A stretch of DNA of 64,000 bases from Thermodesulfatator indicus DSM 15286 (GTDB taxonomy: Bacteria > Desulfobacterota > Thermodesulfobacteria > Thermodesulfobacteriales > Thermodesulfatatoraceae). Each line of letters opens with the position of its first letter. The stretch's first letter is position 1. Where the stretch lies: contig NC_015681.1 in NCBI RefSeq assembly GCF_000217795.1, positions 186,001-250,000 of the forward strand, given 5' to 3'. Shown piece by piece: positions 32,148-58,094 of the stretch. Below the pieces are notes generated by a model that saw only the letters and a program-made list of their open reading frames with translations, was not told the DNA's origin and did no database searches. A program made the translations under genes and the position numbers.

Positions 32148-33005
32148 ATGCCACGTATTCCTCGTTTTTTCATGAATGATCCACGAGCCGCTTATCATGT
32201 AATTTCACGTACCGCCCTGCCCGGCCACGATGTCCTCGGCGATGATGAAAAAGATTACTTGCTCAACCTCATCCGCTGGCTCTCGCAAGTCTATTTTGTA
32301 GAAGTTTATGGCTTTGCCATTATGGGTAATCACTTCCATCTCCTCTGCCGTATGCTCCCCGAAGACCAGTTCTCCGACGCAGAAGTAAAACGCCGTATTC
32401 GCCTCTACTACGGCGAGAAACGCAAAATTTTCTTCTACAAAGAAATGCTCAAAAAATGGAGGCAAAGGCTTGGCAATCTTTCTCGATACGTCCAGGACAT
32501 CAAGCAACGCTTTTCACGCTGGTATAACAAGCGCGTTGACCGCAAAGGCTATTTCTGGGCGGACAGATTCAAGTCCGTAATCATTGAAACCGGCGAGGCC
32601 TTACTGAATTGCCTGGCTTATATAGAGCTAAACCCGGTGCGGGCAGGAATCGTAGAAAAGCCGGAAGACTACCGCTGGTGTTCGCTGGGATACAGAGCAA
32701 GAAGAGGGACAGGCAAAACTTTTCTGTCGCTTGACTCAGGCCTTCCGCGGTATGAGGGAAAAAGCGAGAAAGAGAGATTTGAACTTTTGCAGGAGTTTGT
32801 TTATGGCAAGGGCGGGCTTGGCGAGCCAAAAAGGGGGACAGGCGAAATTTTTAGACAAAAAGTCGGGTATTTTACAGAAAGTCTGGCTATCGGAAGCAAA
32901 GGTTTTGTAGAAAGTGCGGCCGCAAGGTTAAAGAGATTTCTTGGGCTCAAAAGAGAGAAAAGAGGCAAAAAGATAAAAAGTTTGGCAGATATAGCTTTTA
33001 TATGA
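32148..33005 (+). CDS. REP-associated tyrosine transposase (RAYT, Y1/HUH family)
   Basis: The 285-residue protein is a single-strand DNA transposase of the TnpA-REP group. It starts PRIPRFFMNDPRAAYHVISR and has the HUH motif H62-F63-H64 (MGNHFHLLCRM). The catalytic Tyr is probably in RFSRWYNKR, followed by KGYFWADRFKSV and NCLAYIELNPVRAGIVEKPE. The C-terminus is Lys/Arg-rich. AAGGAGGACC is the ribosome site. Such proteins are domesticated and move or maintain REP palindromes; this window has many REP-like repeats. Twice the DNA tag GGGACAGGC falls in frame and gives RGTGKTF and RGTGEIF. Confidence 0.9.
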   Translation: MPRIPRFFMNDPRAAYHVISRTALPGHDVLGDDEKDYLLNLIRWLSQVYFVEVYGFAIMGNHFHLLCRMLPEDQFSDAEVKRRIRLYYGEKRKIFFYKEMLKKWRQRLGNLSRYVQDIKQRFSRWYNKRVDRKGYFWADRFKSVIIETGEALLNCLAYIELNPVRAGIVEKPEDYRWCSLGYRARRGTGKTFLSLDSGLPRYEGKSEKERFELLQEFVYGKGGLGEPKRGTGEIFRQKVGYFTESLAIGSKGFVESAAARLKRFLGLKREKRGKKIKSLADIAFI

Positions 33006-33154: not shown

Positions 33155-33973
33155 ATGCGCATAAGCATAGTTTTTAAAGGCCCAAAAGAAGGGCTAACTC
33201 TACCGGTTCATTATAATCATCTAGTTCAGGCCTTTATTTACCGCTCTCTTGACGCCACTTTGGCTAGCTTCTACCACGAAAGAGGCTTTGCCTACGGCAA
33301 AAGGCGTTTTAAGCTTTTCACATTCTCGCGCCTCCTCGGAAAAGAAAGAAAATTTAACCCTGAAAAAAGAGAAATAACTTTTCATGGGCGCGTTAAGCTT
33401 AAAATTAGCGCAGTTGACGACCGACTTCTTGAGTCCTTTGCTACTCATCTTGTCCGTGAAGGCCAATTTCGGCTTGGGGAGAACTTGTGTGAAATAGAAG
33501 CGGTAGAAGTGGAAATGCCGGTATCTGCGAAAGGGCCGTTGATAGTACGGGCCCTTTCGCCCATCACCATTCACAGCACTTTATATACCCCAGAAGGCAA
33601 GAAAAAGACCTATTTTTATACACCCTTTGAAAGCGAATTTTCCGCGAAAATTTTTGAGAATCTAATGCGCAAAGCACGTGCTCTTTGGGGAGAAGAAGCT
33701 GAACTTCCGCCTTTAAATGGGGCTTACATAAGGCCTTTTCGGGTTTCAAAGAAAAACGAGGTCATTATTGGTTTCAAAAAACTCAGGGAATCCGAAGAAG
33801 AGGGAAAATATGAAAGATCAGAAACGCCTGGGAAATCCAGAAACTTTTGGATAAAAGGCTGGACAGGTCTTTACGAGCTCGCTCTGCCGGAGCCTTATTT
33901 TACCCTGGCCTACCATGCCGGCCTCGGCGCCAGAAACAGCCAAGGCTTCGGCATGATCGAGGTGGTGAAGTAA
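33155..33973 (+). CDS. cas6: CRISPR pre-crRNA endoribonuclease Cas6
   Basis: Cas6 cuts the CRISPR transcript within the repeat to give crRNAs. The 272-residue protein has two RAMP-like ferredoxin folds and ends with the family motif GLGARNSQGFGMIEVVK (G-x-G-x6-G-F-G). A possible general acid His is in NHLVQAFIYRSLD near residue 22. It is the only cas6 in the window and lies in front of the type III genes, 19 kb from the array, so it probably serves both effector modules. The 149-base gap before it is A+T-rich with CCATG/CATGG inverted repeats but no clear promoter. Confidence 0.9.
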   Translation: MRISIVFKGPKEGLTLPVHYNHLVQAFIYRSLDATLASFYHERGFAYGKRRFKLFTFSRLLGKERKFNPEKREITFHGRVKLKISAVDDRLLESFATHLVREGQFRLGENLCEIEAVEVEMPVSAKGPLIVRALSPITIHSTLYTPEGKKKTYFYTPFESEFSAKIFENLMRKARALWGEEAELPPLNGAYIRPFRVSKKNEVIIGFKKLRESEEEGKYERSETPGKSRNFWIKGWTGLYELALPEPYFTLAYHAGLGARNSQGFGMIEVVK

Positions 33974-33991
33974 CCCAATTGGGGAGGGAAG

Positions 33992-35062
33992 ATGGGAACA
34001 CTTGAGGTGAAAATAAAAACCCTTACGCCTCTCTGGACCGGTGGGGTGGATGGCACCATGGACCGCATCCACGAGACGGGCATACTAGGCTCTCTCCGCT
34101 GGTGGTACGAGGCCATTGTCCGCGGGCTTGGAGGAAGCGCGTGTGAGGGGGGGCCAGAAGGCAAAAAATGCGAATTGACTGGTGAAAAATTGCGAAAGTT
34201 TGAAAAAGCCCGCAGAGAAGGCAAGGATTGGTGGACAGCACTGGATGAAGTTGGAATATGCGATGTATGTAAGGTTTTTGGAACAACAGGATGGAAGAGG
34301 AGATTCCGATTAGAGGTAGCAGATGCCCTGATGCAATCGATCAGGATTGACAAGAAAGTTGCCCTTCAGGAACGTCAATATGTTGATAAAAACGGAAAAG
34401 AGAAAACACCCACCTGGTATTTTCCCAATTCACCACGCAGTGGCGAACTCACCGTCTGCATAGAAGACTTTCATCCTGCCTTCAATCCTCAAATCATTGC
34501 TGGATTGATCTGGTTTCTCAGTAATTGGACAGTGCTTGGGGCTCGTGCACAACTGGGTTTCGGTATTGTGCAAACGACTGAAAATATCAACATTAAACCG
34601 CTTTGCGAACAGCTAAAAAATATTTCAGGAAATAATGTATACTATCATTTACCTTCACTGCGCAATATTTTCCTTGCCAAAATCCATCCTCGAAACGGAA
34701 AATCATTCAAAGACAAGGACTCATTCATTCTCAAATATGATCTACGCAGGTTATTTGCGAATTATAAAGCAATAAGGCATTTCATTATGGGCACTATTAA
34801 GAACCAAAAACTTGCATCTAAAGTCAAAATATCAAGACCATATAATGGTGAGATTAGAGTATGGGGATGGATTCCAGAGAAATCTGATGTTTATGACAAA
34901 ACTTGGGATAGAGAGAAAATTTTGCGGGCCATCTATCAGCATTTGACCAGCCACTATAATTTAGTTGTTTGGCGTGAAATGAACTCATCTCGTGATACTG
35001 TTAGTCCGAACTTATCCAATGCAAAAATATTTTTAAAGTCTTTATTAAACTGTGGAGAGTAA
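33992..35062 (+). CDS. cmr1: Type III-B effector RAMP protein Cmr1
   Basis: Cmr1 is a Cas7-like RAMP at the head-side of the Cmr complex, close to the 3' end of the crRNA. The 356-residue protein has the Cmr1 opening KTLTPLWTGGVDGTMDRIHE and the signature TGILGSLRWWYEAIVRGLGG. A cysteine group that may bind zinc follows (C46, C55 and the CDVC pair). The second half is more A+T-rich and divergent. GGGAGGG precedes the ATG. It starts the cmr operon together with the next gene. Confidence 0.9.
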   Translation: MGTLEVKIKTLTPLWTGGVDGTMDRIHETGILGSLRWWYEAIVRGLGGSACEGGPEGKKCELTGEKLRKFEKARREGKDWWTALDEVGICDVCKVFGTTGWKRRFRLEVADALMQSIRIDKKVALQERQYVDKNGKEKTPTWYFPNSPRSGELTVCIEDFHPAFNPQIIAGLIWFLSNWTVLGARAQLGFGIVQTTENINIKPLCEQLKNISGNNVYYHLPSLRNIFLAKIHPRNGKSFKDKDSFILKYDLRRLFANYKAIRHFIMGTIKNQKLASKVKISRPYNGEIRVWGWIPEKSDVYDKTWDREKILRAIYQHLTSHYNLVVWREMNSSRDTVSPNLSNAKIFLKSLLNCGE

Positions 35063-35066
35063 GACA

Positions 35067-36287
35067 ATGAAGAGAGAATTTTGGGCAGAGTTTGATGTTT
35101 ACAGTTTGCCCCAGAACCAAAAACGAGGATTGATCGACTATTTTGCCCAGCAGTCCGAGGCTAGCCAGTCAGCGTCAGGTAGAGACTGGTTTCGTATCAA
35201 AGACCCAGCTGTCCAGCAGGCTTTGTTTGCTCAATTACTGGCTTCGGAAGATAAATGTACCAAACGCGATAAATGTAAGGATTATGCCAAAGGCACTGCC
35301 CTTCAGCATTGGTACTATGCCGGAAATTTGCAAAATCCACGGGGTGATTTTCAACGTTTTCTATGCCAACGTTTGCGCTGGATGGGGCATATTTTGAGCC
35401 TTGCCAACCATCACGATACGGTGAGTCCACTTTTTCCCGACCTCATACTCTTCCCTCCCGGTTCCTGGGCCGTTCAGATCCACTTCACCCTGCGTAAGCC
35501 TTATCTTAGCAAGGACGATGTGGACTTCTACATCCTCGACAACCCGGTGAAGAAGGAGTGGGTTTTCAAGGTGCCCTATGTAGCCCCTAGCCAATGGAAG
35601 GGTGCGCTGAGGTCAGCGATGATACGGGATTTGGCCTCAAAGTTGGAAAATGGTGAGATTACTGAAGAGCAATTTATAGTGGAGCGGCTCAGGCTTTACA
35701 GATTATTTGGTAATGAGAAAGATGGAACAGCAGAATTTCTGAACCGTATCCTTGCCCTTCATCGAGTTGGACCTAAGCCAAAGAATGAATCAGAAGAAAA
35801 AAACTGGCAGGAAAAATTTAGAAACGAAATCAAAAAAGTTGAGGAAGAATTCAAACAGCGACTAAAGGAAAAGAAATATTTAAGAAAAGTAGAAGGCTTC
35901 CAAGGCTGCCTTCACTTCTACCCCACCTTCTTCGACCGCATTGGACTTGAGATCATCAACCCCCACGATCGCGAGACGGGCGCGGGCAAAAATCCCATCT
36001 ACTTCGAGTGCGTGCCCGCGGGAACATCCGGCGTCTTTACGGTGCTCTATGTACCGCTGGACCGAGTGGGCAAGGGATCGCCGGAAGAGATTGAGCAAGA
36101 GGCCAAGGCCGACTTGGAGGCCGTGGCTAAGGGCATCCGCGCCATGCTCACCGAGTACGGCTTCGGGGCGAAGACCAGCAGCGGTTATGGAGTGGCAGAG
36201 GTCATCAAGGAGGAAAGCACGATAAAAGCCAAAGGTTTCTCAGAAGCAGAAGAGATTTTCTGGGAGGCATGGAATGGCAAAAGTTAA
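35067..36287 (+). CDS. cmr6: Cmr6-like RAMP protein of the type III module
   Basis: The 406-residue protein (ATG 35067 with GGAGAG upstream; the GTG at 35052 is less likely) has the RAMP core PYVAPSQWKGALRSAMIRDL and then FYPTFFDRIGLEIINPHDRE. This matches the Cmr6 pattern of a D-x-x-x-P-H segment followed by NPIYFECVPAG. It closes with the glycine loop YGFGAKTSSGYGVAEV. It is longer than typical Cmr6 (about 300) by an N-terminal domain with a Cys pair region (DKCTKRDKC). Similarity is distant, so 'Cmr6-like' is the safest name. Its end overlaps the antitoxin gene by 14 bases. Confidence 0.65.
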   Translation: MKREFWAEFDVYSLPQNQKRGLIDYFAQQSEASQSASGRDWFRIKDPAVQQALFAQLLASEDKCTKRDKCKDYAKGTALQHWYYAGNLQNPRGDFQRFLCQRLRWMGHILSLANHHDTVSPLFPDLILFPPGSWAVQIHFTLRKPYLSKDDVDFYILDNPVKKEWVFKVPYVAPSQWKGALRSAMIRDLASKLENGEITEEQFIVERLRLYRLFGNEKDGTAEFLNRILALHRVGPKPKNESEEKNWQEKFRNEIKKVEEEFKQRLKEKKYLRKVEGFQGCLHFYPTFFDRIGLEIINPHDRETGAGKNPIYFECVPAGTSGVFTVLYVPLDRVGKGSPEEIEQEAKADLEAVAKGIRAMLTEYGFGAKTSSGYGVAEVIKEESTIKAKGFSEAEEIFWEAWNGKS

Positions 36288-36510
36288 GCCTCCCCGCCAT
36301 ATTGTTTGGAGCACTGATACTCTGGATCTTTCCGATCCCTTCCAGCGGCACTGGTATATCCGCCAGGTGCTGCTTCATGGCCGGGCGGAGGACATTCGTA
36401 AACTTGATCTGGACGAAGTAGAACAATTGCTGGATTCATTGGACTTGCCGGAAGATATTGCTCGCCTTTGGAGGGCCTTTTTTAAGGCACGTCATGGTGT
36501 TGCAAGGTAA
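36274..36510 (+). CDS. Putative antitoxin (DUF6922-like) of an AbiE-type pair
   Basis: The 78-residue protein begins PPRHIVWSTDTLDLSDPFQR, then HWYIRQVLLHGRAEDIRKL. This resembles the small DUF6922-type proteins encoded just before AbiEii-like nucleotidyltransferases. It overlaps both its neighbours: 14 bases with the cmr6-like gene and 17 with the toxin gene, so it is translated as part of the CRISPR operon. No DNA-binding domain is obvious. The antitoxin role is inferred from the pairing. Confidence 0.65.
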   Translation: MAKVKPPRHIVWSTDTLDLSDPFQRHWYIRQVLLHGRAEDIRKLDLDEVEQLLDSLDLPEDIARLWRAFFKARHGVAR

Positions 36511-37171
36511 AGGAATTCTGAGCGAACTACAAAAGAAAGTACTGAACCTGCTCGGGCAACTGCCTGACATATCCCGGTTTTACCTGACCGGTGGCACAGC
36601 CTTGGCAGAATTTTACCTAGGACATCGTCTGTCCTTTGACTTGGATCTTTTCACCACAGAAGAAGGTCTCATTGTACCCTTTTCGCGCCAGATCGAGCGA
36701 ACACTTACCCATCATGGCTTGGGAGTTCAGGTAACCCGACGTTTTTCCACTTTTGTGGAAATGACAATCGTCGGGGACGGAGATTCTTTACGCCTGGACC
36801 TGGCCTTAGATACACCTGTTCGTTTTGCGACTTCACTGCCCTCGCCTTACGGTGTGCCCATTAACGTTTTTGAGGATCTGAAAGCCGAAAAAACCCTGGC
36901 GTATTATGGCCGGGCCGAACCTCGGGACGCTGTGGATCTGTACTTTTTACTCAAAGAGAATGAGCTTCAAGCGTTAATGCGGCTGGCTGCGGAAAAAGAT
37001 GCGGGTTTTGATGCTTACTGGTTTGCAGTTGCCCTACAGCGGGCCCAGAATTTTCCGGACGATCTGGAAAAATGGCCTGTTAAAATGCTTATACCCTTTG
37101 ATCCAAAAGATCTGAAAACCCAATTTCAACAGTTAGCATTAGCAATTTTGCATGAAATTACAGGGGGCTAA
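36494..37171 (+). CDS. AbiEii-like nucleotidyltransferase (toxin of TA pair) inside the cmr operon
   Basis: The 225-residue protein (ATG 36494) has the AbiEii/MNT core YLTGGTALAEFYLGHRLSFD, with the GG pair at residues 33-34 and metal-binding D49 and D51 in SFDLDLF, then a third Asp in LRLDLALD. The later helix KAEKTLAYYGRAEPRDAVDL is also family-typical. Related toxins add nucleotides to tRNA acceptor ends and give abortive infection. Both metal residues are intact, so it looks active. It starts inside the antitoxin gene and ends two bases before the Cas10/Csx11 gene. Confidence 0.85.
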   Translation: MVLQGKGILSELQKKVLNLLGQLPDISRFYLTGGTALAEFYLGHRLSFDLDLFTTEEGLIVPFSRQIERTLTHHGLGVQVTRRFSTFVEMTIVGDGDSLRLDLALDTPVRFATSLPSPYGVPINVFEDLKAEKTLAYYGRAEPRDAVDLYFLLKENELQALMRLAAEKDAGFDAYWFAVALQRAQNFPDDLEKWPVKMLIPFDPKDLKTQFQQLALAILHEITGG

Positions 37172-37172
37172 T

Positions 37173-40100
37173 ATGCATAACCTCAAAGTGCTTGCTGATA
37201 ACCGCGACGAAATTCTCAAAGCCGAATTTGTTATACTCCTGCATGATGTTGGCAAGTTGCATGTAGGGCATCAGTCAAAATATTTGCGAGATAAGCCAAG
37301 GTCTAATTACGCCCATACGCGTTTTGGCCCTGGTAGATCTAGTAGTTTTTTGCAACAATTCGCAAATAACTTCCCCTCAAACACTTCGATATCTGCTCAG
37401 CGTGTTATCCAAGACCACCACAAGCGAAGTAGTGGAAATTGCGGTGTCAACGACTTTGTGGTTTGCGTTGTGCAGCGAATTGATTGGTTAGATTCCGAAT
37501 ATGACCGTTCAGAAATCATTACTCATGGGCGGAACGCTTTTTCTGTTCAGCCTAAATCCTTGGGTTTTGGAGTGTTTTCGGTCTTTGGTTATCAGCGATT
37601 TCTTTATTGTTTGAATTCAAGTTGCTCGAATAGCAATATTAAACCCCTACCAGAAAACGCTCGAAACAAACAAGTTAATTGCTCTACCAATGGAGACTTT
37701 CTGACACGTTTAGTGTGTGCTCTAAAAGATATTGCATTTGCGAATTTTGTTGGGGAAAGAATGGGCCTTTTGGTTTTGCTTCAATCTTCGCTTGCTATGG
37801 CTGCCGGAGATACGAGGTATAGTGTAAACGATATTTCTCTATGGGAACATTCCTTGTCGGTAGGAGTGTTATTCAAAATTTTCTATGCGTGGATAAAGGG
37901 AAATGATATAAATCTAAGCTCCCCAATTAGTGCAATTAGTGTTACATCTCTTGAAGAAATTATTAAAAAGCACGCTCAATTTCGTTCGTGGTTCCGTCCT
38001 CAACTCCTTCCTCTCCGTATTGACGGCCTGGCCTACCTCGCGCAATCCAACAACGTCCCCGACCTGCTGGCACGTCGCGCTTTGTTACAGAAAGTCTACG
38101 ACGCCTGGCAGGACATCCTGGAATGGGAATTCCCCCTGGCCGGGGAAGTTTACCGGGATGAGAACGGGCCGGTGTTCCTGACCTTTTTGCGAGATCAGGA
38201 AGGAAAAAATGTAATACCTCTCCATCTGTTGAAGTTGCCCGAGGACAACAAGGACTTTATGTTGCTGGATGCCTATCAGCGAGCCAAGAACCTTGAAGAG
38301 TATCTGCGTCAGACCGTTATTCATTTCACACACGGAGATCTTACTCTTCCACCAGAGATAGAGCTATCTACCTACACCCAGAAACGGTCTGAGGATGGTA
38401 AATCGTTGGGGGATTTATTGCGTGAAGAACAGGAAGAAGGCCTGAGATATCAGCCTGATGTTGAGAAAATCGCTCAATCTTGGAACAACGAGGGAGAACT
38501 GCACGAAAAATGTTCTCTATGCGGTTTGAGGCCCTTGGGATTCGGGGCCAAAAACCAGAATAGACATAAAGCCATCTCCCGGGGCATGTGCGGCGTTTGC
38601 CTCGAGCGGCGAGAATCCCGTGCAAAACCGTGGGTGCAGGGGATTCACCTGGACACGCAAAAGCGTTTCCTGCAAGGACATCCCGAGACCGTCTGGCTGG
38701 ACGAAGTCGCGGATAAACACGGACGGATTGCCTTGATTGTGGGCTACTTCCCCTTGGAGAACTGGCTGGATGGTACGCTAGTGGAATCCTTAGCCATGTT
38801 CAAACGGCTTCAATCTGAATTTCCACCTATAAACCGCAAGATAGTCATCCACGAGGAAAACGGCCAACAAATTGATGTGGTCCTTGGCCCCAAACCCATT
38901 TCCTATTCCCGCATCCGTAGGATCTGGGAAACGACCCGCCGTTTCTGGCAAGACGTTGCGCCCACGGATCCACCTCCGAAAGCGCTCCAAGAATGGCTGG
39001 AGGACAATGAATATGGACTTTCTCTGGGAGACCTCTGGGAAAGTTCCCTTTCCTTGGAGGAATCCTTGGCAGGCCAGACCATTGGTGAACGCCGCCCTCG
39101 CATTTTCCTCAAAGGCGCGGTAGAACCAAAGGACCGCATTTTCCCCTACCACGCCTACGAACTCGAAATCCAGGGCCGCAAGGTAGCCGTGCTCTGGGTG
39201 CCGGAAAAAGACGGTGAGGTAGATATTCCGGAAAAATACCGCGGCGGCTTCTGGGTGATTGAGAACCTGGAGTATCTGGACAATGTGTATGGCCGTTCGT
39301 TCCAGAACCTTGTGCAAGATCTGGCAGGCCAGCCCTTGAAAGTGTACGAGCCAACTGAATACGGACGACCGGGCCAGGAACAGGCTACATTTACGATTGC
39401 GCGGGAAGACGGCGTCCAGGACTCCGCAAGCTCTTACACCCCCCTCATCCCCATCCTCGCGGAGCCCCGCACTTTCATGGCCCTGGTGCCTGCAGACAAG
39501 GCCTTCGAGGTGGTGAAGGCCATCAAGGCCAAATACGAGCGGGAGATGGGCAAAGTCAGAAATCGCCTGCCGTTACACATTGGCGTTGTGTATGCCTATC
39601 GCAAGATGCCCCTCAGGGCGATCATGGACGCGGGAAGGAGAATGTTGGCGCAACAAAGTAAACCGTTAGTGTGGAAGGTAATTTGTTCAGCCCGAAAATC
39701 AATAAATAAAGAGGATAAGCTACCTGAAAGATTTGACCAAGATAAAGATGGCCAATTTATAGAATGGTTGGAAATCTTGATAGAGGCAGACGATCGAAAA
39801 CTTACTTGGTATGTTCCAGCCCTAATGGGAGATGGTGAGACAGAAGACCATTGGTATCCTTATGTTTTTCTTGCCCAATGTGAAGAACCATCTGATAGAA
39901 ACCGTTATTACAAAGCCATAAATCCCTGGAATTCAGCCCATCCCTGGCTTGTTCATGTCGCAAAGCTTGAACCTGGAGACGAGATTTATTTCACCCCGGC
40001 CACCTTTGACTTTGAATTCCTTGAAACTAACGTAAGACGATTCGAAGTACATTACGATGAGAGAGGAAAGCGTTACAACTCCCTTACCAGACCATATCTT

Positions 40101-40454
40101 TTAGACGAAATTATTGAGCTTGAAAAAATTTGGAATTTTGTTGCAAGAGAAAAGAAAAATGGCAAATCAAGACTCAGTTCCTCTCAAATCTTTGCTATCA
40201 GAAATGCCATTGAAGCCAAACGAGAAGAATGGTTTGAGAATTTTCAAGATTCCATCAATGACGAAAGCTTTAAAGAATTTTGCAAAGCTTTGTTCATAAA
40301 TGCTCAATGGCAAGGAGATAAGCCAACGCTAAAAGAAATAAACTGGCTTACGGATATGGCTGTGCGTGGTTATTTCACCGATGCAATTTATCTTTTTCAC
40401 CACATAATGAAAGAGAAAATTGAAGATGTTTCACAGGAGGTCCGGCATGTATAA
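37173..40454 (+). CDS. csx11: Csx11-type Cas10 large subunit of the Cmr complex, GGDD absent
   Basis: The 1093-residue protein (ATG 37173, GGGGG upstream) is the large subunit. The HD nuclease motif is H24-D25 (VILLHDVGKLH), with later QDHHKRS and RIDWLDSEYDR. A zinc ribbon uses C447/C450 and C473/C476. The second palm domain reads ILAEPRTFMALVPADKAFEV, then KVRNRLPLHIGVVYAYRKMP. The place of the cyclase motif GGDD is taken by A763-E-P-R766. That pattern fits the Csx11 family. HD activity looks possible, cyclic oligoadenylate synthesis does not. The first 270 residues are coded by more A+T-rich, differently biased DNA than the middle. The end overlaps cmr4. Confidence 0.8.
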   Translation: MHNLKVLADNRDEILKAEFVILLHDVGKLHVGHQSKYLRDKPRSNYAHTRFGPGRSSSFLQQFANNFPSNTSISAQRVIQDHHKRSSGNCGVNDFVVCVVQRIDWLDSEYDRSEIITHGRNAFSVQPKSLGFGVFSVFGYQRFLYCLNSSCSNSNIKPLPENARNKQVNCSTNGDFLTRLVCALKDIAFANFVGERMGLLVLLQSSLAMAAGDTRYSVNDISLWEHSLSVGVLFKIFYAWIKGNDINLSSPISAISVTSLEEIIKKHAQFRSWFRPQLLPLRIDGLAYLAQSNNVPDLLARRALLQKVYDAWQDILEWEFPLAGEVYRDENGPVFLTFLRDQEGKNVIPLHLLKLPEDNKDFMLLDAYQRAKNLEEYLRQTVIHFTHGDLTLPPEIELSTYTQKRSEDGKSLGDLLREEQEEGLRYQPDVEKIAQSWNNEGELHEKCSLCGLRPLGFGAKNQNRHKAISRGMCGVCLERRESRAKPWVQGIHLDTQKRFLQGHPETVWLDEVADKHGRIALIVGYFPLENWLDGTLVESLAMFKRLQSEFPPINRKIVIHEENGQQIDVVLGPKPISYSRIRRIWETTRRFWQDVAPTDPPPKALQEWLEDNEYGLSLGDLWESSLSLEESLAGQTIGERRPRIFLKGAVEPKDRIFPYHAYELEIQGRKVAVLWVPEKDGEVDIPEKYRGGFWVIENLEYLDNVYGRSFQNLVQDLAGQPLKVYEPTEYGRPGQEQATFTIAREDGVQDSASSYTPLIPILAEPRTFMALVPADKAFEVVKAIKAKYEREMGKVRNRLPLHIGVVYAYRKMPLRAIMDAGRRMLAQQSKPLVWKVICSARKSINKEDKLPERFDQDKDGQFIEWLEILIEADDRKLTWYVPALMGDGETEDHWYPYVFLAQCEEPSDRNRYYKAINPWNSAHPWLVHVAKLEPGDEIYFTPATFDFEFLETNVRRFEVHYDERGKRYNSLTRPYLLDEIIELEKIWNFVAREKKNGKSRLSSSQIFAIRNAIEAKREEWFENFQDSINDESFKEFCKALFINAQWQGDKPTLKEINWLTDMAVRGYFTDAIYLFHHIMKEKIEDVSQEVRHV

Positions 40455-41559
40455 AACCCATCGCTTTTTGATTATGACAACTGATCCAGTGCATATAGGC
40501 ACTGGTGGTATGCGCCTTGGCCGGGTTGATAATACCATTGTAAGGGAGCCAGGGACCAGGCTTCCCAAGATTCCAGGAACGGCCCTTCATGGAGCCATCA
40601 GGGCTTATGCCGCCAGAAGATATGGAAAGCCCCAGTGCGCAGGGCAGGGCTCAACCGAAGGGAGAAAGCATTGCGGGCGCCCTACTTGCCCTATCTGCTA
40701 TACATTCGGCTCCATTCAAGGGGAGGCTGGCTCTTTTTCAGGCGTCGTTTCAATTTCCGACGCCAGAATTCTGTTATTTCCGGTTTATTCCATGGTCGGG
40801 CCGGTGTGGGTGAGTACAGTAGGCATTTTGAAGGAAGCAGGATTCGATGTTTCGAATCCATCTAACAATTCGGAAGTGAAAGAGGATGAATTCTATTCTA
40901 CGATGAAGATTGAAAAGCCGATAAGTCTCGGATGGCTAATGGTTGATCCACCCAAGGCAGTGGAAATTAATCCTCCAAAAGATTTAAAGCAATGGGAAAA
41001 TATTAAAAATCGCATTGTCCTTGTTTCTGACAAGCTCTTCTCTCAGATTGTAAATTCTAATCTTGAAGTAAGAACTTCCGTGGCCATAAATCCCGAAACC
41101 GGTGCCACTGAAGAAGGAGCCCTTTATACCTACGAAGCCATCCCACGGGCAACTTTTCTTTGGTTTGACGTGGTAGTGGATGACTTTAGGGGGACTTTTC
41201 CAACTGTTACGAAACTTTCAGAGTGGGAAAATATTCTCAAAAATGAAAAGGAGGAAGCAAAAAAAGGCCTTTTAAAAAAGTGGAAGCTCTTATCAGATAA
41301 AGAAGATAAAGAAGAAAAAGAAAAATTTCAAAAGGCTGTAAAAAAAGTTTTTGATTGGATTAATGAAGAAAGATTCAAAGATGTTAATCTAGAAAAATGG
41401 AAGTGGGATAATATTGAAGCAACACAAAATAATCAAAACATCTTACGAATAATAGTATCTGGCCTCGAATGGGCAGAGCATCTCGGTATTGGTGGTATGG
41501 GCACCAGAGGCTTTGGAAGAATTAAACAAGTTGTTGATCCTTGGGAGGTTCAATTATGA
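40447..41559 (+). CDS. cmr4: Type III-B backbone RAMP protein Cmr4 (target RNA nuclease)
   Basis: Cmr4 repeats along the crRNA and cuts target RNA every six bases. ATG 40447 with ACAGGAGGT upstream gives 370 residues. Marks are DPVHIGTGGMRLGRVDNTIV, IPGTALHGAIRAYAARRYG and the glycine loop GGMGTRGFGRIK. The catalytic Asp of the family corresponds to D28, which is present. Cysteines in CGRPTCPICYTFGS may hold zinc. A charged insertion (KEEAKKGLLKKWKLLSDKED) is present in the second half. It overlaps csx11 and cmr5. Confidence 0.9.
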   Translation: MYKTHRFLIMTTDPVHIGTGGMRLGRVDNTIVREPGTRLPKIPGTALHGAIRAYAARRYGKPQCAGQGSTEGRKHCGRPTCPICYTFGSIQGEAGSFSGVVSISDARILLFPVYSMVGPVWVSTVGILKEAGFDVSNPSNNSEVKEDEFYSTMKIEKPISLGWLMVDPPKAVEINPPKDLKQWENIKNRIVLVSDKLFSQIVNSNLEVRTSVAINPETGATEEGALYTYEAIPRATFLWFDVVVDDFRGTFPTVTKLSEWENILKNEKEEAKKGLLKKWKLLSDKEDKEEKEKFQKAVKKVFDWINEERFKDVNLEKWKWDNIEATQNNQNILRIIVSGLEWAEHLGIGGMGTRGFGRIKQVVDPWEVQL

Positions 41560-41969
41560 CTAAAACTAATCTTGATAAAGTAGCACAAGATCATGCTAGG
41601 AAGATGCTTGATGTAAGTGATAAGGAAACACTAGAAAGATTAGTTACCAAAGCTTTAGGCGTGCTCCAGAATCAGGGTGTATATGCCATGATGCTTTTTC
41701 TTTTTTCAAGAAGTTCAAAAGAAAAAGAAATAGCTCCTGTAATTCGTAATTCTCTTTATGATGCCTTAAAAAGGCTAGTAAATTTTAAAAATGAGACCAT
41801 TGTAGATAGCCCTAAAGAAGCTCTGGAATTTTATTCTCAAAAAGTAGTAGAAAACCTCGATACCCTCCTCCTCGTCCGTGACCTCTATGAGCAGACTTTG
41901 ATTTACGCTCGCTTTCATGCCAAAGCTGCCAAAGAAGAACAATCAGGTTCAACAGAGGAGGCGGCATGA
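41556..41969 (+). CDS. cmr5: Type III-B small subunit Cmr5
   Basis: Cmr5 forms the minor filament that binds the crRNA-target duplex. ATG 41556 (GGGAGG upstream, overlapping the cmr4 stop) gives 137 residues, nearly all helical. DLYEQTLIYARFHAKAAKEE and ALGVLQNQGVYAMMLFLFSR are typical. It overlaps the next RAMP gene by four bases. Confidence 0.8.
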   Translation: MTKTNLDKVAQDHARKMLDVSDKETLERLVTKALGVLQNQGVYAMMLFLFSRSSKEKEIAPVIRNSLYDALKRLVNFKNETIVDSPKEALEFYSQKVVENLDTLLLVRDLYEQTLIYARFHAKAAKEEQSGSTEEAA

Positions 41970-42919
41970 GTTTTAAGCATTACCGTGTGGTTTTGAAGCT
42001 CCTTTCGCCACTACATATCGGCAAAAGAAAATATAGGAATCTCATGGAAACCCGGGAATATGTACCTGGTCGGACACTTTGGGGTGCGCTAACGGCACGA
42101 ATTACAAGAGATCACTTTGGTGCTGATCTTAGCAAATATGAAGAAGTAGGTACTTTTTTCCATGAAAATTTTCGCTTTGGCTATCTCTGGCCTTCATTAG
42201 ATAAGAAGAATCCATATTTCCCGTGGGAAAAGAACGACTTTGATTATCTTTTTAAATTTGGTTATATGAGTCAGGCTGGAGATTACGAGAGAAAAGTAAG
42301 TGATGAAGGTCAGCTTCATGAAGTGGAATATATTGGGCCAAAAACACGAGATGATAGAGATGTTTATTTAGTTGGAGATCTGTGGGTCAAAGAAGATATA
42401 AACTCCTCAAACAAAGGTCCTTTTGAAGGAATACGTTTAGAGAAAAATGACTTGTTTTTTATTAAAACAAAAGAAGAACAAAAAGAAATCAGTTTAAAAA
42501 AGATATTCGGCAGCTTGCAGCTTGGTGGTGAAAAGGGCTATGGTTGGGGTCGGGTAAAACTAGAAAGCCTTACTCCCACAAATAGCAGAAAAGCCTTGGG
42601 TGGTATTGTTTTTGAGGTAGATGGAAAAGATGTGGTGCTTCAATTTGCCAAAAATCAATATTTGACAGCCCATGCCCTTGCCGCAGATTGGCAGCTTAAA
42701 GACGCTGAAAATAATAACGGTCAACACTTTATTAAAATCAAAGATGGATCTGTTGAAGGCCCAATTGAGCCCTTAACAGGCTACGTCCTTAAGCAAGATA
42801 ACTCTTGGGGAATTCCTAGCCCACCGATTTGTTTTCTTCCCGGCAGCAAGATAAAAGAAAATCTTAGCGTAAAAATTGCACATTTTGGAATACTAACCAA
42901 TGCTTCCGGCATTGGTTGA
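41966..42919 (+). CDS. cmr3: RAMP protein, Cmr3/Csx10-like (Cas5 group)
   Basis: The 317-residue protein has a RAMP opening (VVLKLLSPLHIGKRKYRNLM, then REYVPGRTLWGALTARITRD) and the glycine loop GGEKGYGWGRVKLES. The opening resembles Csx10/Cmr3-type Cas5-like subunits that hold the 5' handle of the crRNA. As Cmr1, 4, 5, 6-like and Cas10 are otherwise accounted for, it fills the Cmr3 role by elimination. The sequence match itself is weak. It ends the operon; 520 bases without a gene follow. Confidence 0.55.
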   Translation: MSFKHYRVVLKLLSPLHIGKRKYRNLMETREYVPGRTLWGALTARITRDHFGADLSKYEEVGTFFHENFRFGYLWPSLDKKNPYFPWEKNDFDYLFKFGYMSQAGDYERKVSDEGQLHEVEYIGPKTRDDRDVYLVGDLWVKEDINSSNKGPFEGIRLEKNDLFFIKTKEEQKEISLKKIFGSLQLGGEKGYGWGRVKLESLTPTNSRKALGGIVFEVDGKDVVLQFAKNQYLTAHALAADWQLKDAENNNGQHFIKIKDGSVEGPIEPLTGYVLKQDNSWGIPSPPICFLPGSKIKENLSVKIAHFGILTNASGIG

Positions 42920-44423: not shown

Positions 44424-45875
44424 ATGGCCTCAGTAAAAATAAGCCTTTCTCGTCAGAGGGGTAATTTCTGGATTGATAACGGCCTGGTCGTGCTCTATCG
44501 CCTCTTTGGTGAGGGGGAATTTGAGCACGAACAACTGCTTGAAGCCATTGTAGAAAAACTCGTGCAAGAGACCGAAAACGAAGGAGAATATGTCGATACA
44601 GAAACTGGTGCCATCAAAAAATACCCCAAAAAGAACTGGCTTTATCCGGCTAATCTGTTTATAAAGGCTACTCCCAAAGCCTCAAAAACAAAAATAGATG
44701 GCAAAACTTACTTCACTAGTCCACCGACCTACGACCTCAAGCTCTCTTTTAGCCGCAAAAAAGAGAGTTGCGATCTGTGTGGGGAAACAGCCCCGCTTAC
44801 CAAGGCCAAAATGTGGAACTATCCCTTTGTGGTAGAGCCCGGAAAGTTTGCCAATTTTTACCCGGGGCTGAAACGTGAACTCAAAATTTGCCCGACCTGT
44901 GCTGTAGCTGGCCTTGCCGCCTATCTTGGCTGGCTCTGGTGCGCTCAGGGGCGTGAGGCCCTGCACATCTTTTGTTTTCAAGGTGATCTCAAAGATCTTG
45001 AACGTTTGCAAAGAGAAATCTTCGATCACCTACGCTTGGGAAATAAAAAAAGAAATACTCCTTTGGCCTTTTACGGTCCTTATCTTCATGAAACAACGCT
45101 AGGTCTTCTTTTAAGGCTTTTTTCCTATGTAAGGCGAAACTCAGAAGAGGCAGAAAAGCTTAGTGATGAAGCCCTGGAACTGCTCACCAAGCTTTTTGGA
45201 GCTTCGGAAAACCCCCTCTCTCGTCCTTTAGTGCTTTATGTAGTTACCGGAAAACCTGGAAAAGCTTTTGATATGCAAGCCTTTAAGGAATTCAGCCACC
45301 TGGCCACCCTTTATCGCCTTTATGAGGCTTTCGTTGAAAGCCTTCCCTCGGAACGTCCTCAAGAAATACTGGAAGGTGTCTTCAGACAGTTTCAAAAAAA
45401 AGAGGGGCGCGGCTACAACACCATCTGGCGCGAAAAGATCGCCGCTGCGGTCTTGGAGTTTGGTGATCCTCTACCCTTTATAGAAGATTTTCTTTACGAA
45501 GGCTCTGAAAAAAGGCCCCTGGTTTTCAAGACTCTTGAGGTCTTTGAGGTCTATCTCAAGGAGGTTCTTAACATGGACGCACAATTACTAAAGGTAATTC
45601 GAGGTTTTGGGTATACCCTGGGCTCTCATGCCCAAAAAGAAAACGAAATGGGGCTGCTGTATGCCTTGCGAAACGCCAAAAATCTAGATGAATTTTTCCG
45701 AGTCTTAAACGACGTGCAATATCGTCTTGGTTTGACCGTACCTGAAGACATGCTTGCTGTAGAATCCGGAGAGCTCATAAAAGGTAGCCCCTGGAGACGG
45801 GTCAAAACATTGCTTTCGATATACGCCATGAATGCCTTTTTAAGAGGCCAAACCGAAACATCTAAGGAGGACTAA
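44424..45875 (+). CDS. cas8b: Type I-B Cascade large subunit Cas8b (Cst1, CXXC-CXXC type)
   Basis: Cas8 recognises the PAM and helps open target DNA. The 483-residue protein has the two zinc-binding pairs of the CXXC-CXXC (Cst1) group: C116/C119 in SCDLCGE and C156/C159 in ICPTCAVAGL. It begins SVKISLSRQRGNFWIDNGLV. The C-terminal helical part (LLYALRNAKNLDEFFRVLND) may supply the small-subunit function by an internal start, as in other I-B systems; this is not tested. It opens the operon cas8b-cas7-cas5-cas3. Confidence 0.85.
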   Translation: MASVKISLSRQRGNFWIDNGLVVLYRLFGEGEFEHEQLLEAIVEKLVQETENEGEYVDTETGAIKKYPKKNWLYPANLFIKATPKASKTKIDGKTYFTSPPTYDLKLSFSRKKESCDLCGETAPLTKAKMWNYPFVVEPGKFANFYPGLKRELKICPTCAVAGLAAYLGWLWCAQGREALHIFCFQGDLKDLERLQREIFDHLRLGNKKRNTPLAFYGPYLHETTLGLLLRLFSYVRRNSEEAEKLSDEALELLTKLFGASENPLSRPLVLYVVTGKPGKAFDMQAFKEFSHLATLYRLYEAFVESLPSERPQEILEGVFRQFQKKEGRGYNTIWREKIAAAVLEFGDPLPFIEDFLYEGSEKRPLVFKTLEVFEVYLKEVLNMDAQLLKVIRGFGYTLGSHAQKENEMGLLYALRNAKNLDEFFRVLNDVQYRLGLTVPEDMLAVESGELIKGSPWRRVKTLLSIYAMNAFLRGQTETSKED

Positions 45876-45876
45876 A

Positions 45877-46827
45877 ATGAGCAAGGCTATAAGCCTGGGA
45901 TATCTCTTCAAAGTCTCGGCAGGCAATGTAAACGCATCTCACACCGAAGGAAACGTTATGGTCACCAAAAAGGTAACTCTTCCCGATGGAAGCACCCTCC
46001 CTTATATCTCTGGCCAGGCCATAAGGCGCATGTTGAGGGATCGCCTTGAAGACCTGGGCTGGGCCCTTTCCGAACCCTTCTGTAAGGTCTCCGGCCAGGA
46101 AGTAACCCCGCCGGTAAGGCCCTGGGACTTCATTGACGAAGACCTCTTCGGTTATCTTGACCCTTCTGGAGGGAAGCGGCGTACCTCTCCGGTGCGGGTC
46201 TCAGCGGCGATAGGACTTTTTCCTTTCCAGGGAGACCGCGACTTAGGAACTCGCTCGTTCGAAAAATTCGGCCAGGCCATGAGCGAAGGCGGCAATATGT
46301 TTGAAACCGAGCTCTACGCCAATCTCTTTCGGGGAGCGATATTGATAGAACTCGACCGAGTGGGAAGCTTTACCACTCTCGAAATAAATACTGAGAGGAT
46401 TCCCGAAAATTTAATCAAAGAAGAAAATCTATTCTCACTTCATCCAACGGAAAAAAGAAATAGGCTCCAAACCCTACTCGAAGCTCTGAGCTTACTTTGG
46501 GGCGGTGGCCGTACAGCCAGAATGCTGGCTGATCTTTCGCCACGCTTCCTGGCATACGCGCGTCTTTCAGTAAAACACCCGGTTTTTCTCGAAAACATAG
46601 AGGTTGAATTTCAAAATGGAAAATACCGTCTTATGCTAGCCCCGCTAAAAAATGCCATGGAAAAATTTCAGGATCGGATGGAAAAAGCCATCTTCGGTCT
46701 TGAACCTGGCTTCTTTGTCAATGAAGAGGAAATACGCGACAACCTTTCAGCCTATGGTGACGTGGTAAGTCTCTCTGAAGCTATTGGTAAAGCTAAAAAA
46801 GACGTAGAGGAGCTATGGAAGGATTAG
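45877..46827 (+). CDS. cas7: Type I-B backbone protein Cas7 (Cst2/DevR family)
   Basis: Cas7 forms the helical backbone of Cascade along the crRNA spacer. The 316-residue protein has the family start GYLFKVSAGNVNASHTEGNV, PYISGQAIRRMLRDRLEDLG and NMFETELYANLFRGAILIEL. A GGAGG site precedes it in the cas8b end. It overlaps cas5 by 13 bases. Confidence 0.92.
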   Translation: MSKAISLGYLFKVSAGNVNASHTEGNVMVTKKVTLPDGSTLPYISGQAIRRMLRDRLEDLGWALSEPFCKVSGQEVTPPVRPWDFIDEDLFGYLDPSGGKRRTSPVRVSAAIGLFPFQGDRDLGTRSFEKFGQAMSEGGNMFETELYANLFRGAILIELDRVGSFTTLEINTERIPENLIKEENLFSLHPTEKRNRLQTLLEALSLLWGGGRTARMLADLSPRFLAYARLSVKHPVFLENIEVEFQNGKYRLMLAPLKNAMEKFQDRMEKAIFGLEPGFFVNEEEIRDNLSAYGDVVSLSEAIGKAKKDVEELWKD

Positions 46828-52339: not shown

Positions 52340-55300
52340 GTTCACAGCCTAACTAAAAGGAATGGAAACCTAACTCTACTTTCTTTTTCCCCTGCTGTTT
52401 TGTAGGTTCACAGCCTAACTAAAAGGAATGGAAACTTATTTTGTAACTTTTCTTGTATCTCATCCCAACCAGTTCACAGCCTAACTAAAAGGAATGGAAA
52501 CAAAATCCTTGATAAATTCCTGCTGCTATTCTTCTTAGGTTCACAGCCTAACTAAAAGGAATGGAAACAACAATTAAAAAATTCTCCTGCTCTTTCCCCT
52601 CCAGCGTTCACAGCCTAACTAAAAGGAATGGAAACGAAGGTTATAGAGCTTTGATTTCTTTAGTTAAACAGGGTTCACAGCCTAACTAAAAGGAATGGAA
52701 ACTTAGATTTAAAAATTAAGGTAGCAGTTAAAGAAGGAGTTCACAGCCTAACTAAAAGGAATGGAAACTGGGCAACAAATATTTATAAAATCACGCCCCA
52801 CATTGTTCACAGCCTAACTAAAAGGAATGGAAACATAGAATACAGCTAAGAAGAATAGCAGCAGGAATTTGTTCACAGCCTAACTAAAAGGAATGGAAAC
52901 GGGCTTTAAGAGAAGACTTTGGAAAAGTGGTTGGAGGTTCACAGCCTAACTAAAAGGAATGGAAACAAGTCTCAAATATTTAATGCAGTTAGCACAGTAT
53001 TTGGTTCACAGCCTAACTAAAAGGAATGGAAACTTCCCTTAGAGGGACAGGTTATGTGGTAATAAAATCCTGTTCACAGCCTAACTAAAAGGAATGGAAA
53101 CCTAACAAAATCTCTCCACTTTCTCATAAAAACCTCCGTTCACAGCCTAACTAAAAGGAATGGAAACATAGACATAAGTGCGTGGGGGACATACCCATTT
53201 GCGTGTTCACAGCCTAACTAAAAGGAATGGAAACGACTGATGGAACATACGGCCTCCATTCAAGCTCTCCCGTTCACAGCCTAACTAAAAGGAATGGAAA
53301 CGGGGGTGTGGGTGAGGAAAATAGAAAAAAGAGTACTGGTTCACAGCCTAACTAAAAGGAATGGAAACCAAGAACTTATACTTTTTAGGAAAATGTTTCT
53401 TAGCAGTTCACAGCCTAACTAAAAGGAATGGAAACTCATTATTGAGGCTGACACAGCACGATGCGAAAGCCCGTTCACAGCCTAACTAAAAGGAATGGAA
53501 ACTCTTCCTGCTTTTTGGTTTTTGGATATTTTTGGTTACCGTTCACAGCCTAACTAAAAGGAATGGAAACCGATTTCCGCGGCTCTAATACTCCATGGCG
53601 GAGCATGTTCACAGCCTAACTAAAAGGAATGGAAACGGTAGCGTTCAAGGGCTGTTGCGTCAAAGCCTTGCTCGTTCACAGCCTAACTAAAAGGAATGGA
53701 AACGTGCGTAACGCCTGAACATTTACCCTGGCATCTGCACAGTTCACAGCCTAACTAAAAGGAATGGAAACTTGATATTATTAGTGAAAATCCTTACTCA
53801 TTGACTCGTTCACAGCCTAACTAAAAGGAATGGAAACATATCCAATAGTTATTATTCCTATGACTTCATCTCACGTTCACAGCCTAACTAAAAGGAATGG
53901 AAACATGGCAAAATAACGGGCCGCCCTTTCTGCAGCCAGAGTGTTCACAGCCTAACTAAAAGGAATGGAAACTTACCTAACCTCTATAAATTTTAGCTTG
54001 AACGAAGTAGTTCACAGCCTAACTAAAAGGAATGGAAACATTAAACTAATTTGGTTAGCAAGAAAACACACCACAGTTCACAGCCTAACTAAAAGGAATG
54101 GAAACTAATCATATTCAGATAAGGCCTCTAACAAAGGAACTAGTTCACAGCCTAACTAAAAGGAATGGAAACTTTGGTGGCCGTCATACCCTCCGACTAT
54201 TTTCACTTTGTTCACAGCCTAACTAAAAGGAATGGAAACTAAAATGTTTTATCCCCTGCCTAATAGTTCCCTTGAGTTCACAGCCTAACTAAAAGGAATG
54301 GAAACAAGCTAAACTTCGGGACTTGTGAAATAGTCATATCGAGTTCACAGCCTAACTAAAAGGAATGGAAACTTTCTTCTATGCTCCGCATTATTTATCC
54401 TCCAATAAAGTTCACAGCCTAACTAAAAGGAATGGAAACTCGCCACCAGCCCGGATAATACGGGCATTCTTCTAGCGTTCACAGCCTAACTAAAAGGAAT
54501 GGAAACTCGCCACCAGCCCGGATAATACGGGCATTCTTCTAGCGTTCACAGCCTAACTAAAAGGAATGGAAACTTTTGCCATCGGTCAGGTGCCGGTGGC
54601 CGTCCAGGTAGTTCACAGCCTAACTAAAAGGAATGGAAACTAAACTCTGCTTTGGTTAACCCTAGGCCCGCCTTTACGTTCACAGCCTAACTAAAAGGAA
54701 TGGAAACTTACCAGACTTTTGGTTAATATTATTAAGCTCGTTCTGTTCACAGCCTAACTAAAAGGAATGGAAACAAAGATTGAGCATCAACAGCGTTAAT
54801 AATAATGTTGTGTTCACAGCCTAACTAAAAGGAATGGAAACCTTTATTGGTAAAATTATCAATTGTAGAGGAATTGAGTTCACAGCCTAACTAAAAGGAA
54901 TGGAAACGAAGGACAATGCAAATAATACTAACCGAGAAACCAAGGTTCACAGCCTAACTAAAAGGAATGGAAACCTAAACCTTCTGCACTTCTTTGAATT
55001 AAAGCCACTGGGTTCACAGCCTAACTAAAAGGAATGGAAACGATATGGTAATGGAGAAATGAAAACAACAGCGTATTTGTTCACAGCCTAACTAAAAGGA
55101 ATGGAAACAGCATTTTGGTGAGGAATTTGAGCGTTATATGGGAGTGTTCACAGCCTAACTAAAAGGAATGGAAACTTTTATTATTCATTTCCCCCTTTTT
55201 CTATGTATTCTTGTTCACAGCCTAACTAAAAGGAATGGAAACTTTTATTATTCATTTCCCCCTTTTTCTATGTATTCTTGTTCACAGCCTAACTAAAAGG

Positions 55301-56233
55301 AATGGAAACTAATCCCACCGGAGTGGTTCCGGTTCAGCAATGCATAGTTCACAGCCTAACTAAAAGGAATGGAAACGCGAAACGTCTGGCTTCAAGAGGG
55401 GACAACCTGATTCGGTTCACAGCCTAACTAAAAGGAATGGAAACTCGGCACCCACGAGGCAGGAATCTGGCGAAGAGTCGGGTTCACAGCCTAACTAAAA
55501 GGAATGGAAACAGCATTTTGGTGAGGAATTTGAGCGTTATATGGGAGTGTTCACAGCCTAACTAAAAGGAATGGAAACAAAAGCTTGAGGTAAAACTGGA
55601 AGAAGTCTTCCCTCAGGTTCACAGCCTAACTAAAAGGAATGGAAACAGTACTAACTAACTACTTTCTTAATACTTAACTAATAGTTCACAGCCTAACTAA
55701 AAGGAATGGAAACACCTCATTTCCGAGAGCCTTAGCAATGGCACTTTTACCGTTCACAGCCTAACTAAAAGGAATGGAAACACCTCATTTCCGAGAGCCT
55801 TAGCAATGGCACTTTTACCGTTCACAGCCTAACTAAAAGGAATGGAAACGGTAAAATTTCTTTGTTACGCATATTCACAATCCTCGTTCACAGCCTAACT
55901 AAAAGGAATGGAAACCTGGATCGGCCTATCGATGTAATTTTTGGTGCCTTAGTGTTCACAGCCTAACTAAAAGGAATGGAAACTCGTCCATGAGGGCTGG
56001 CACGACCGAAACGCTTCGAGGTTCACAGCCTAACTAAAAGGAATGGAAACTTTGAACGAGCTCATGCGGAGGTTCAAAGGGAAGGAGTTCACAGCCTAAC
56101 TAAAAGGAATGGAAACTTTGAACGAGCTCATGCGGAGGTTCAAAGGGAAGGAGTTCACAGCCTAACTAAAAGGAATGGAAACTGGCCTTACGATAACGGA
56201 AGGCGGCTCTGAGAGAGGGTTCACAGCCTAACT
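52340..56233 (+). CRISPR. CRISPR array, 58 complete 30-nt repeats and 58 spacers, ending in a split repeat
   Basis: The repeat is 30 nt, starts GTTCACAGCC and ends GGAATGGAAAC, the type I-B/III thermophile ending. I counted 58 complete repeats from 52340, then half a repeat at 56219-56233, with spacers of about 36-38 nt. Repeats are almost invariant. Four spacers are tandemly duplicated (54440/54508, 55176/55243, 55714/55782, 56051/56118 as starts), and one recurs apart (55109 and 55512). Spacers at 52502 and 52835 overlap on opposite strands. The reading direction from cas2 and the leader is plus. Confidence 0.97.
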
Positions 56234-56244
56234 ACTAAGGGGAG

Positions 56245-56409
56245 CACTAAATAGGCGACAATTGAGTCATTTTGCGAGCGAAGCGAAGCAATCCCTGAGA
56301 CTGCTTCGACCTCTAACGAGGCCTCGCAGTGACAGCGAAGGTTACTTTGCTTTAGCGATTATGTAAGCGGCGATACTTTGTCGTGTAAAACACACTCGGA
56401 TTAATATTA
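56245..56409. repeat. Short composite REP-like element (165 bp), copy A
   Basis: Starts CACTAAATAGGCGACAATTG and ends GATTAATATTA. It is 165 bp long and differs from the copy at 60383-60547 at only about five positions without gaps. Inside, TGCGAG...CGAAGCA can pair with TGCTTCG...CTCGCA. GGGAGCACT occurs at its left and right borders (56240 and 56412), perhaps marking its insertion. Confidence 0.8.
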
Positions 56410-56647
56410 CTGGGAGCACTTTTTAGGTGACACTCAGGCCTCATGATTACAAGCTTTTAGAAGCTGAAAATGTCATATATTTGATGACCCCATCCTGTGA
56501 AAACATCGACCAATAACCACCAACTCTAGTTCAAGAGAGATTCCTGTGCGTGGTCAAAGCCTACAATTTGTTGTGCCTGCTGGTGGTCGGTCAGGTTAAT
56601 ATCGCGCTCTTTGGCTTCAGTGGGGGCTACGACCTTACCTCGCTGTT

Positions 56648-57901: not shown

Positions 57902-58012
57902 GGGTATATACCTCCTTTTTAAAGACTTTTTGAAGCAACAAAATATCCATGGCTCCTCTCTTTTCAATGTTTTCATGCCTTCGTTGTGCCCCTTTGGGGC
58001 ATGGAGGTTAAT

Positions 58013-58027
58013 AAAAGGAATGGAAAC
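58013..58027 (+). CRISPR. Right half of the repeat split by the IS110 element
   Basis: AAAAGGAATGGAAAC is identical to the last 15 bases of the array repeat. Preceding bases GGTTAAT are close to the repeat's CCTAACT but not identical, so the IS boundary lies within a few bases of 58012. Confidence 0.8.
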
Positions 58028-58094
58028 TGCGTTCTGAAATTTCGCGTAGCGCCTCCTTAACACCCTTGTCATCCACTTTCATCTTGATGTCCAT
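58028..58094 (-). pseudogene. Start of a phage-like gene cut off by the repeat remnant
   Basis: On the minus strand, ATG 58094 (AGGATAAGGGG upstream) begins MDIKMKVDDKGVKEALREIS and runs straight into the half repeat at 58027, so only about 22 codons remain. The helix-rich start recalls HK97 gp10-type phage morphogenesis proteins; this is a weak similarity from memory. The fragment occupies the place where a spacer would be expected but is much longer than one. Confidence 0.4.

Follow-up and report, generated by a model that had tools for sequence, protein, structure and literature searches.

We think it reasonably probable, going by sequence comparison, that two small genes inside a type III-C CRISPR operon of Thermodesulfatator indicus DSM 15286 form a genuine, intact proteic toxin-antitoxin module, that this module is a hitchhiking addiction element which also stabilises the III-C locus, and that it belongs to one clade of Csx11 loci which is a hotspot for such modules. 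The window analysed is a stretch of 64,000 nucleotides from a genome of one contig (2,322,224 bases). The whole operon occupies 33155-42919 of the window and runs cas6, cmr1, cmr6, the genes for 78 and 224 residues, csx11, cmr4, cmr5, cmr3:

33155..33973, + strand, cas6: Pfam Cas_Cas6_C E=7e-31; PADLOC Cas6b
33992..35062, + strand, cmr1: PADLOC Cmr1 E=4e-25
35052..36287, + strand, cmr6 (RAMP): PADLOC Cmr6 E=3e-96
36274..36510, + strand, putative antitoxin, 78 residues, helical, DUF6922-like family: ATG start; directly 5' of the toxin in six loci
36497..37171, + strand, AbiEii/DUF1814 nucleotidyltransferase toxin, 224 residues: GTG start; Pfam PF08843 E=4e-13
37173..40454, + strand, csx11 (Cas10c): ATG start; TIGR02682 E=1e-99; HD motif kept, GGDD replaced by AEPR
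40420..41559, + strand, cmr4: PADLOC Cmr4 E=4e-47; start uncertain
41559..41969, + strand, cmr5: PADLOC Cmr5 E=1e-39; start uncertain
41966..42919, + strand, cmr3: PADLOC Cmr3 E=1e-91

The arrangement is the one that the original prediction described. All genes are on the plus strand and the pair is embedded without gaps between cmr6 and csx11. The 78-residue gene begins at 36274 and overlaps the end of cmr6 (36287) by 14 nt, which leaves no upstream gap for a promoter of its own. The toxin gene begins at a GTG (36497) within the antitoxin gene, with the same overlap of 14 nt, and a single base separates its stop (37171) from the csx11 ATG (37173). When the operon was scanned for promoters and terminators, sites were no more numerous than in shuffled sequence. 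The GC content of the pair is 0.48-0.51, the same as in cmr6 and csx11, so base composition is uninformative about a recent acquisition. Csx11 scores 335 bits against TIGR02682 (cut-off 249), cmr1, cmr3, cmr4, cmr5 and cmr6 accompany it and the GGDD motif is replaced; this is subtype III-C and rules out an assignment to III-B. Because this cyclase motif has been lost, Csx11 is unable to use cyclic-oligoadenylate effectors. The motif is absent from every Csx11 that we aligned, including those of clades without inserts, and III-C has been listed among the inactivated subtypes (PMC12669027).

The larger protein is a member of the AbiEii/DUF1814 family, since it matches PF08843 (E=4e-13) and has motifs I-IV. 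The family pattern is GGx~15DhD with an Arg, KxxAaxxR and RDxxD. The GG and D-x-D core noticed earlier is there, as G32 G33 and D48-x-D50, and the remaining motifs are intact as well: R44, K132-x6-R139 and RDxxD (143-147). Residues G32 G33 R44 D48 D50 K132 R139 D144 D147 are invariant among the relatives (A2), with a spacing of GGx14DLD, and the toxicity of AbiEii requires these conserved motif residues (Dy et al., PMC3985639). An AlphaFold model built from five sequences is of middling quality (pLDDT 68); its best Foldseek match is MenT1 (8an4, E=3.6e-5), and its 13 best structural matches are all of DUF1814 type (MenT3, JHP933, MenT1; Z 8.3-10.4), with MenT3 aligned over 192 residues at Z 10.4 and rmsd 5.6. 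The model thus suggests a toxin like that of MenAT1, a DUF1814 protein with the MenT fold. MenT toxins add nucleotides to the acceptor ends of tRNA (PMC10435456). One further, distant AbiEii pair lies elsewhere in the genome (L098). A viral origin was considered and rejected, as the toxin alignment and cmr6 found zero relatives among viral contigs; so was a plasmid origin, as plasmids yield merely distant AbiEii proteins (30-34%).

The pair had been called AbiE-like, and this was right for the toxin and wrong for its partner. In AbiE (AbiEi-AbiEii, type IV; Dy 2014, PMC3985639) the toxin is likewise a DUF1814/PF08843 protein with motifs I-IV and the antitoxin gene likewise comes first in a bicistronic unit. 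However, AbiEi, which autoregulates a promoter of its own and does not bind the toxin, is a COG5340 protein with an N-terminal wHTH, and the 78-residue protein is modelled as helical, has neither feature, lacks a promoter region of its own and is encoded within a cas operon. It matches nothing in Pfam, NCBIfam or PADLOC. Its kinship with other small partners of AbiEii is clear (A1 vs A3, 97%). Its relatives approach DUF6922 (PF21956) at E=0.04-0.1, short of the Pfam cut-off; the window protein has no match and reaches only E=0.16 against a true DUF6922 protein in hhalign, so we do not name the pair after DUF6922, a family that no paper in our open-access literature search names. The partner of a more distant AbiEii toxin (L104) is a true DUF6922 protein (E=6e-12), and small partners of this type therefore seem to be general companions of AbiEii/DUF1814 toxins. 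The antitoxin family has a single copy in the genome.

The closest parallel is MenAT1 of M. tuberculosis, which also joins a short DUF1814 toxin (about 195-224 residues for the two systems) to a small helical antitoxin that has no DNA-binding domain; MenA1 has 68 residues and blocks the active site of its toxin (PMC10435456). The comparison with MenA1 is based on size and helicity: a PDB sequence search with the 78-residue protein did not match it and a fold search was likewise empty, and neither revealed homology to another solved antitoxin. MenAT1 also differs in lying outside CRISPR operons. The sequences place the toxin in the MenAT/AbiEii class and keep the antitoxin apart from AbiEi, which points to a small new family of antitoxins against toxins of this class.

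A scan of genome contigs found four close relatives of the toxin (63-78%), and the WOR-3 phylum, searched separately, added a fifth (L093), whose toxin is 49% identical to that of L005. Their contexts are:

L005 (Hydrothermota MAG): cmr6, MNT-HEPN, the pair, csx11
L007 (WOR-3): HEPN, cmr6, PDDEXK_3, MNT-HEPN fragment, the pair, contig end
L008 (labelled Aquificota): type I-B, with cas6, MNT, the pair, remnants, cas8b, cas11b, cas7, cas5, cas3
L006 (WOR-3): non-CRISPR, with restriction/helicase genes, the pair, a pyruvate ferredoxin oxidoreductase subunit
L093 (WOR-3 phylum): non-CRISPR, the pair alone amid housekeeping-type genes

The overlap of 14 nt is kept in all six pairs, the window included, and dN/dS is 0.05-0.15 for both proteins in comparisons with unsaturated dS, which indicates strong purifying selection. 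The pair is not there by chance, since close relatives of both proteins share the overlap and the selection on them is strong. The original prediction of something beyond chance insertion is borne out by another phylum, in which the pair recurs between cmr6 and csx11. Two of the six pairs lie at this junction (window, L005), one is 3' of cmr6 at a contig end, one is in a I-B operon and two are non-CRISPR. A pair that stood alone elsewhere and was absent from all related loci would have spoken against a tie to CRISPR. Stand-alone copies do exist (L006, L093), but the pair is present in III-C at L005, probably in III-C at L007, and in I-B at L008. In its own phylum none of the remaining Csx11 loci has it (17 genomes, of which one cannot be seen at the cmr6-csx11 junction).

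Two of these neighbourhoods show further detail. The gap between cas6 and cas8b in the I-B locus (L008 8304-12251) is crowded with MNT, the AbiEii pair, a solo DUF6922-like gene, HEPN, MNT and remnants. Repeats of the form CACAGAGGCACAGGGAG are found at the end of cmr6 in L083 (5001-5101) and L007 (1948-2580); beside them is a GxxExxY/PDDEXK_3 gene in L007 and a short scar alone in L083.

Identity between L005 and L006 is 90% for the toxins but 39% for the N-termini of Csx11 from these genomes; the pair therefore moved independently of the cas genes. Decay takes the toxin first, in this pair and in other modules. L143 (genome G421) and L006 (genome G420) represent one non-CRISPR site in two genomes, and their flanks have 92-96% nucleotide identity; both genes are intact in L006, and in L143 the antitoxin is intact and the toxin is reduced to eight codons. 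The toxin has an internal deletion in L145, DUF6036 is truncated in L083, HEPN is truncated beside an intact MNT in L133 and L007, and L008 has a first MNT without HEPN as well as its solo DUF6922-like gene. A toxin retained without its partner was not seen among the loci compared; L144 was left out of this count because a contig end interrupts its toxin. Loss of the toxin first is the pattern expected of real toxins and antitoxins, and it is the main sign, drawn from sequence, that the 78-residue protein is probably an antitoxin. The orphan antitoxin gene of G421 (L143 9695-9925) shares its genome with a full pair beside cmr6 (L007), and it may free G421 from addiction to that cmr6-linked copy.

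Our survey of Csx11 covered 395 genomes of the phylum of T. indicus and 147 of the WOR-3 phylum, and 31 loci were compared. In most of them cmr1, cmr6, csx11 and cmr4 directly adjoin. The inserts that interrupt them are AbiEii pairs, MNT-HEPN, DUF6036 nucleotidyltransferase pairs and an AbiL-like pair. MNT-HEPN (type VII toxin-antitoxin) occupies the same junctions as the AbiEii pair in sister III-C loci (L005, L129, L068, L007); it comprises different protein families and adjoins the pair without being a member of it. The inserts other than AbiEii pairs include:

G007: MNT-HEPN at the cmr1-cmr6 junction
G419 (L005 and L133): in L133, MNT and a pair of a 75-residue protein and a DUF6036 nucleotidyltransferase at the csx11-cmr4 junction
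G420 and G459: a small protein and a DUF6036 nucleotidyltransferase at the csx11-cmr4 junction, the enzyme truncated in G420
G461: an AbiL-like ATPase and partner at the cmr1-cmr6 junction; MNT-HEPN at the cmr6-csx11 junction
G458: restriction genes and a YgjP-like gene before csx11

The cmr1-cmr6 insert of G461 (L129 2303-4382) consists of an AriA/AbiLi-like ATPase with a partner of 298 residues. At G458 (L127 219-6753) type I restriction genes, a DarT/DarG-like fusion (410 residues) and a YgjP-like peptidase gene abut csx11, and cmr6 is not upstream.

In a maximum-likelihood tree every insert-bearing locus belongs to a single clade of 12 members (support 100/100), and inserts occur in 0 of the 19 loci outside it. 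L005 and L133, two contigs of one genome, are taken as one locus, and two insert-free members of the clade (G463, G466) are visible only partly. Shuffling the labels on the tree gave equally few changes in 4 of 500 trials. We also counted by hand, with G458 and L007 excluded, how many of the visible junctions that join cmr1, cmr6, csx11 and cmr4 carry an insert. The hotspot group for this count is eight loci (a subclade supported at 98/100 minus G458, plus G461); inserts occupy 8 of its 17 junctions, compared with 0 of 61 in the other loci (Fisher p=1e-6, a value that ignores relatedness). The sequences argue that one Csx11 clade is a hotspot in which modules are gained repeatedly and then decay.

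Such pairs recur in related operons, and elsewhere toxins are lost while antitoxins stay; this suggests that the pair is an addiction module which accompanies the immune system and maybe helps to keep it. If the proteins act as their MenT and AbiEii homologues do, the toxin would add nucleotides to RNA, probably at tRNA 3' ends, and so halt translation, and the 78-residue protein would bind and block it as MenA1 does. The module would have come into the III-C operon with its genes already overlapping, as a finished cassette that preserves translational coupling. Because it would share the transcript of the operon, deleting or silencing the operon would end the supply of antitoxin and penalise the cell. 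Such an element would protect itself and stabilise the CRISPR locus without being a subunit of the III-C complex. III-C can work without the pair, since sister Csx11 loci such as G420 and G466 have no pair at the cmr6-csx11 junction.

The earlier proposal of an addiction module that keeps the CRISPR locus in the genome fits the toxin-first decay and the turnover of modules, but a purely selfish hitchhiker would account just as well for the orphan antitoxins and for a pair that moves independently. The pair would then be real but would sit in a permissive overlapping operon through self-addiction, with CRISPR neither benefiting from it nor regulating it. The non-CRISPR members of the family (L006, L093), its patchy presence among sister Csx11 loci and the rapid turnover with decaying toxins agree with this. 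However, effector operons of two CRISPR types contain four of the six copies, and in one Csx11 clade modules of other families keep entering the same junctions, which is beyond random landing. We regard a purely neutral or selfish element as possible but doubtful.

It is less likely still that this III-C clade, incapable of cyclic-oligoadenylate signalling, employs interchangeable proteic modules whose translation is tied to that of its effector subunits and which serve as guards or as an abortive arm of last resort. Disruption of the operon or complex would then unbalance the antitoxin and release a tRNA-modifying toxin or an RNase. We also find it improbable that the pair itself is a dedicated abortive arm, an idea that the original prediction raised too, in which the antitoxin would hold the toxin until a phage or an anti-CRISPR disturbs III-C, replacing the lost signalling of Csx11. 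A Csx11 without the GGDD motif, the reported inactivation of III-C (PMC12669027), the stoichiometric coupling that overlapping genes provide and the precedent of CrePA, whose toxin is released when CRISPR is inhibited (PMC12737573), all favour such an arm; but GGDD is lost in all Csx11, also in insert-free clades, the modules belong to different families and often decay, and no CreA-like ectopic repeat was found. A role for the nucleotidyltransferase in III-C immunity itself, such as the modification of crRNA or target RNA, with the small protein as its subunit or scaffold and not its antitoxin, is very improbable, since although the recurrent AbiEii, MNT and DUF6036 enzymes of the clade all share the Pol-beta nucleotidyltransferase fold, the same pair occurs without CRISPR (L006, L093) and in I-B (L008), the partner is retained where the enzyme is deleted (L143) and related loci also host modules that are not nucleotidyltransferases.

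The 2012 proposal that immunity and toxins are coupled remarked that immunity loci showed no typical antitoxins (PMC3506569). The 2013 survey by Zhang (PMC3936711) found proteic pairs in cas loci of type I only, on the same strand and with the antitoxin first as here, and did not report AbiEii. What is new with respect to these surveys is complete protein pairs inside a III-C effector operon, at several junctions, from several families and in one Csx11 clade. Our open-access literature search found no paper combining Csx11 and type III-C, and others may have noted these pairs. Sister loci with and without modules provide a natural experiment on whether CRISPR loci are stabilised by toxin-antitoxin modules, and orphan antitoxins, which should release a genome from addiction, offer a further ready comparison.

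The CreTA and CrePA guards (PMC9458426, PMC12737573) are also toxin modules at CRISPR-cas loci that penalise the loss of CRISPR or act upon its inhibition, but they use a crRNA-like RNA antitoxin and repression by Cascade, whereas the window has a protein antitoxin and a type III-C host. No match of at least 19 of 30 positions to the array repeat was found outside the array, and the operon holds no match of at least 10 of 11 positions to the 3' part of that repeat. With no ectopic repeat found in these searches, we reject a CreTA/CrePA reading. The array itself is long (52340-58050, repeat GTTCACAGCCTAACTAAAAGGAATGGAAAC) and contains identical adjacent spacer pairs, for example at 54410/54477, 55146/55213, 55684/55752 and 56021/56087. 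By eye, a gene for a REP-associated Y1-type transposase lies immediately 5' of cas6 (32148-33005), and a second cas operon, of type I-B with a Cas8/Cst1-like and then a Cas7/DevR-like gene, follows the III-C operon (44424-46827).
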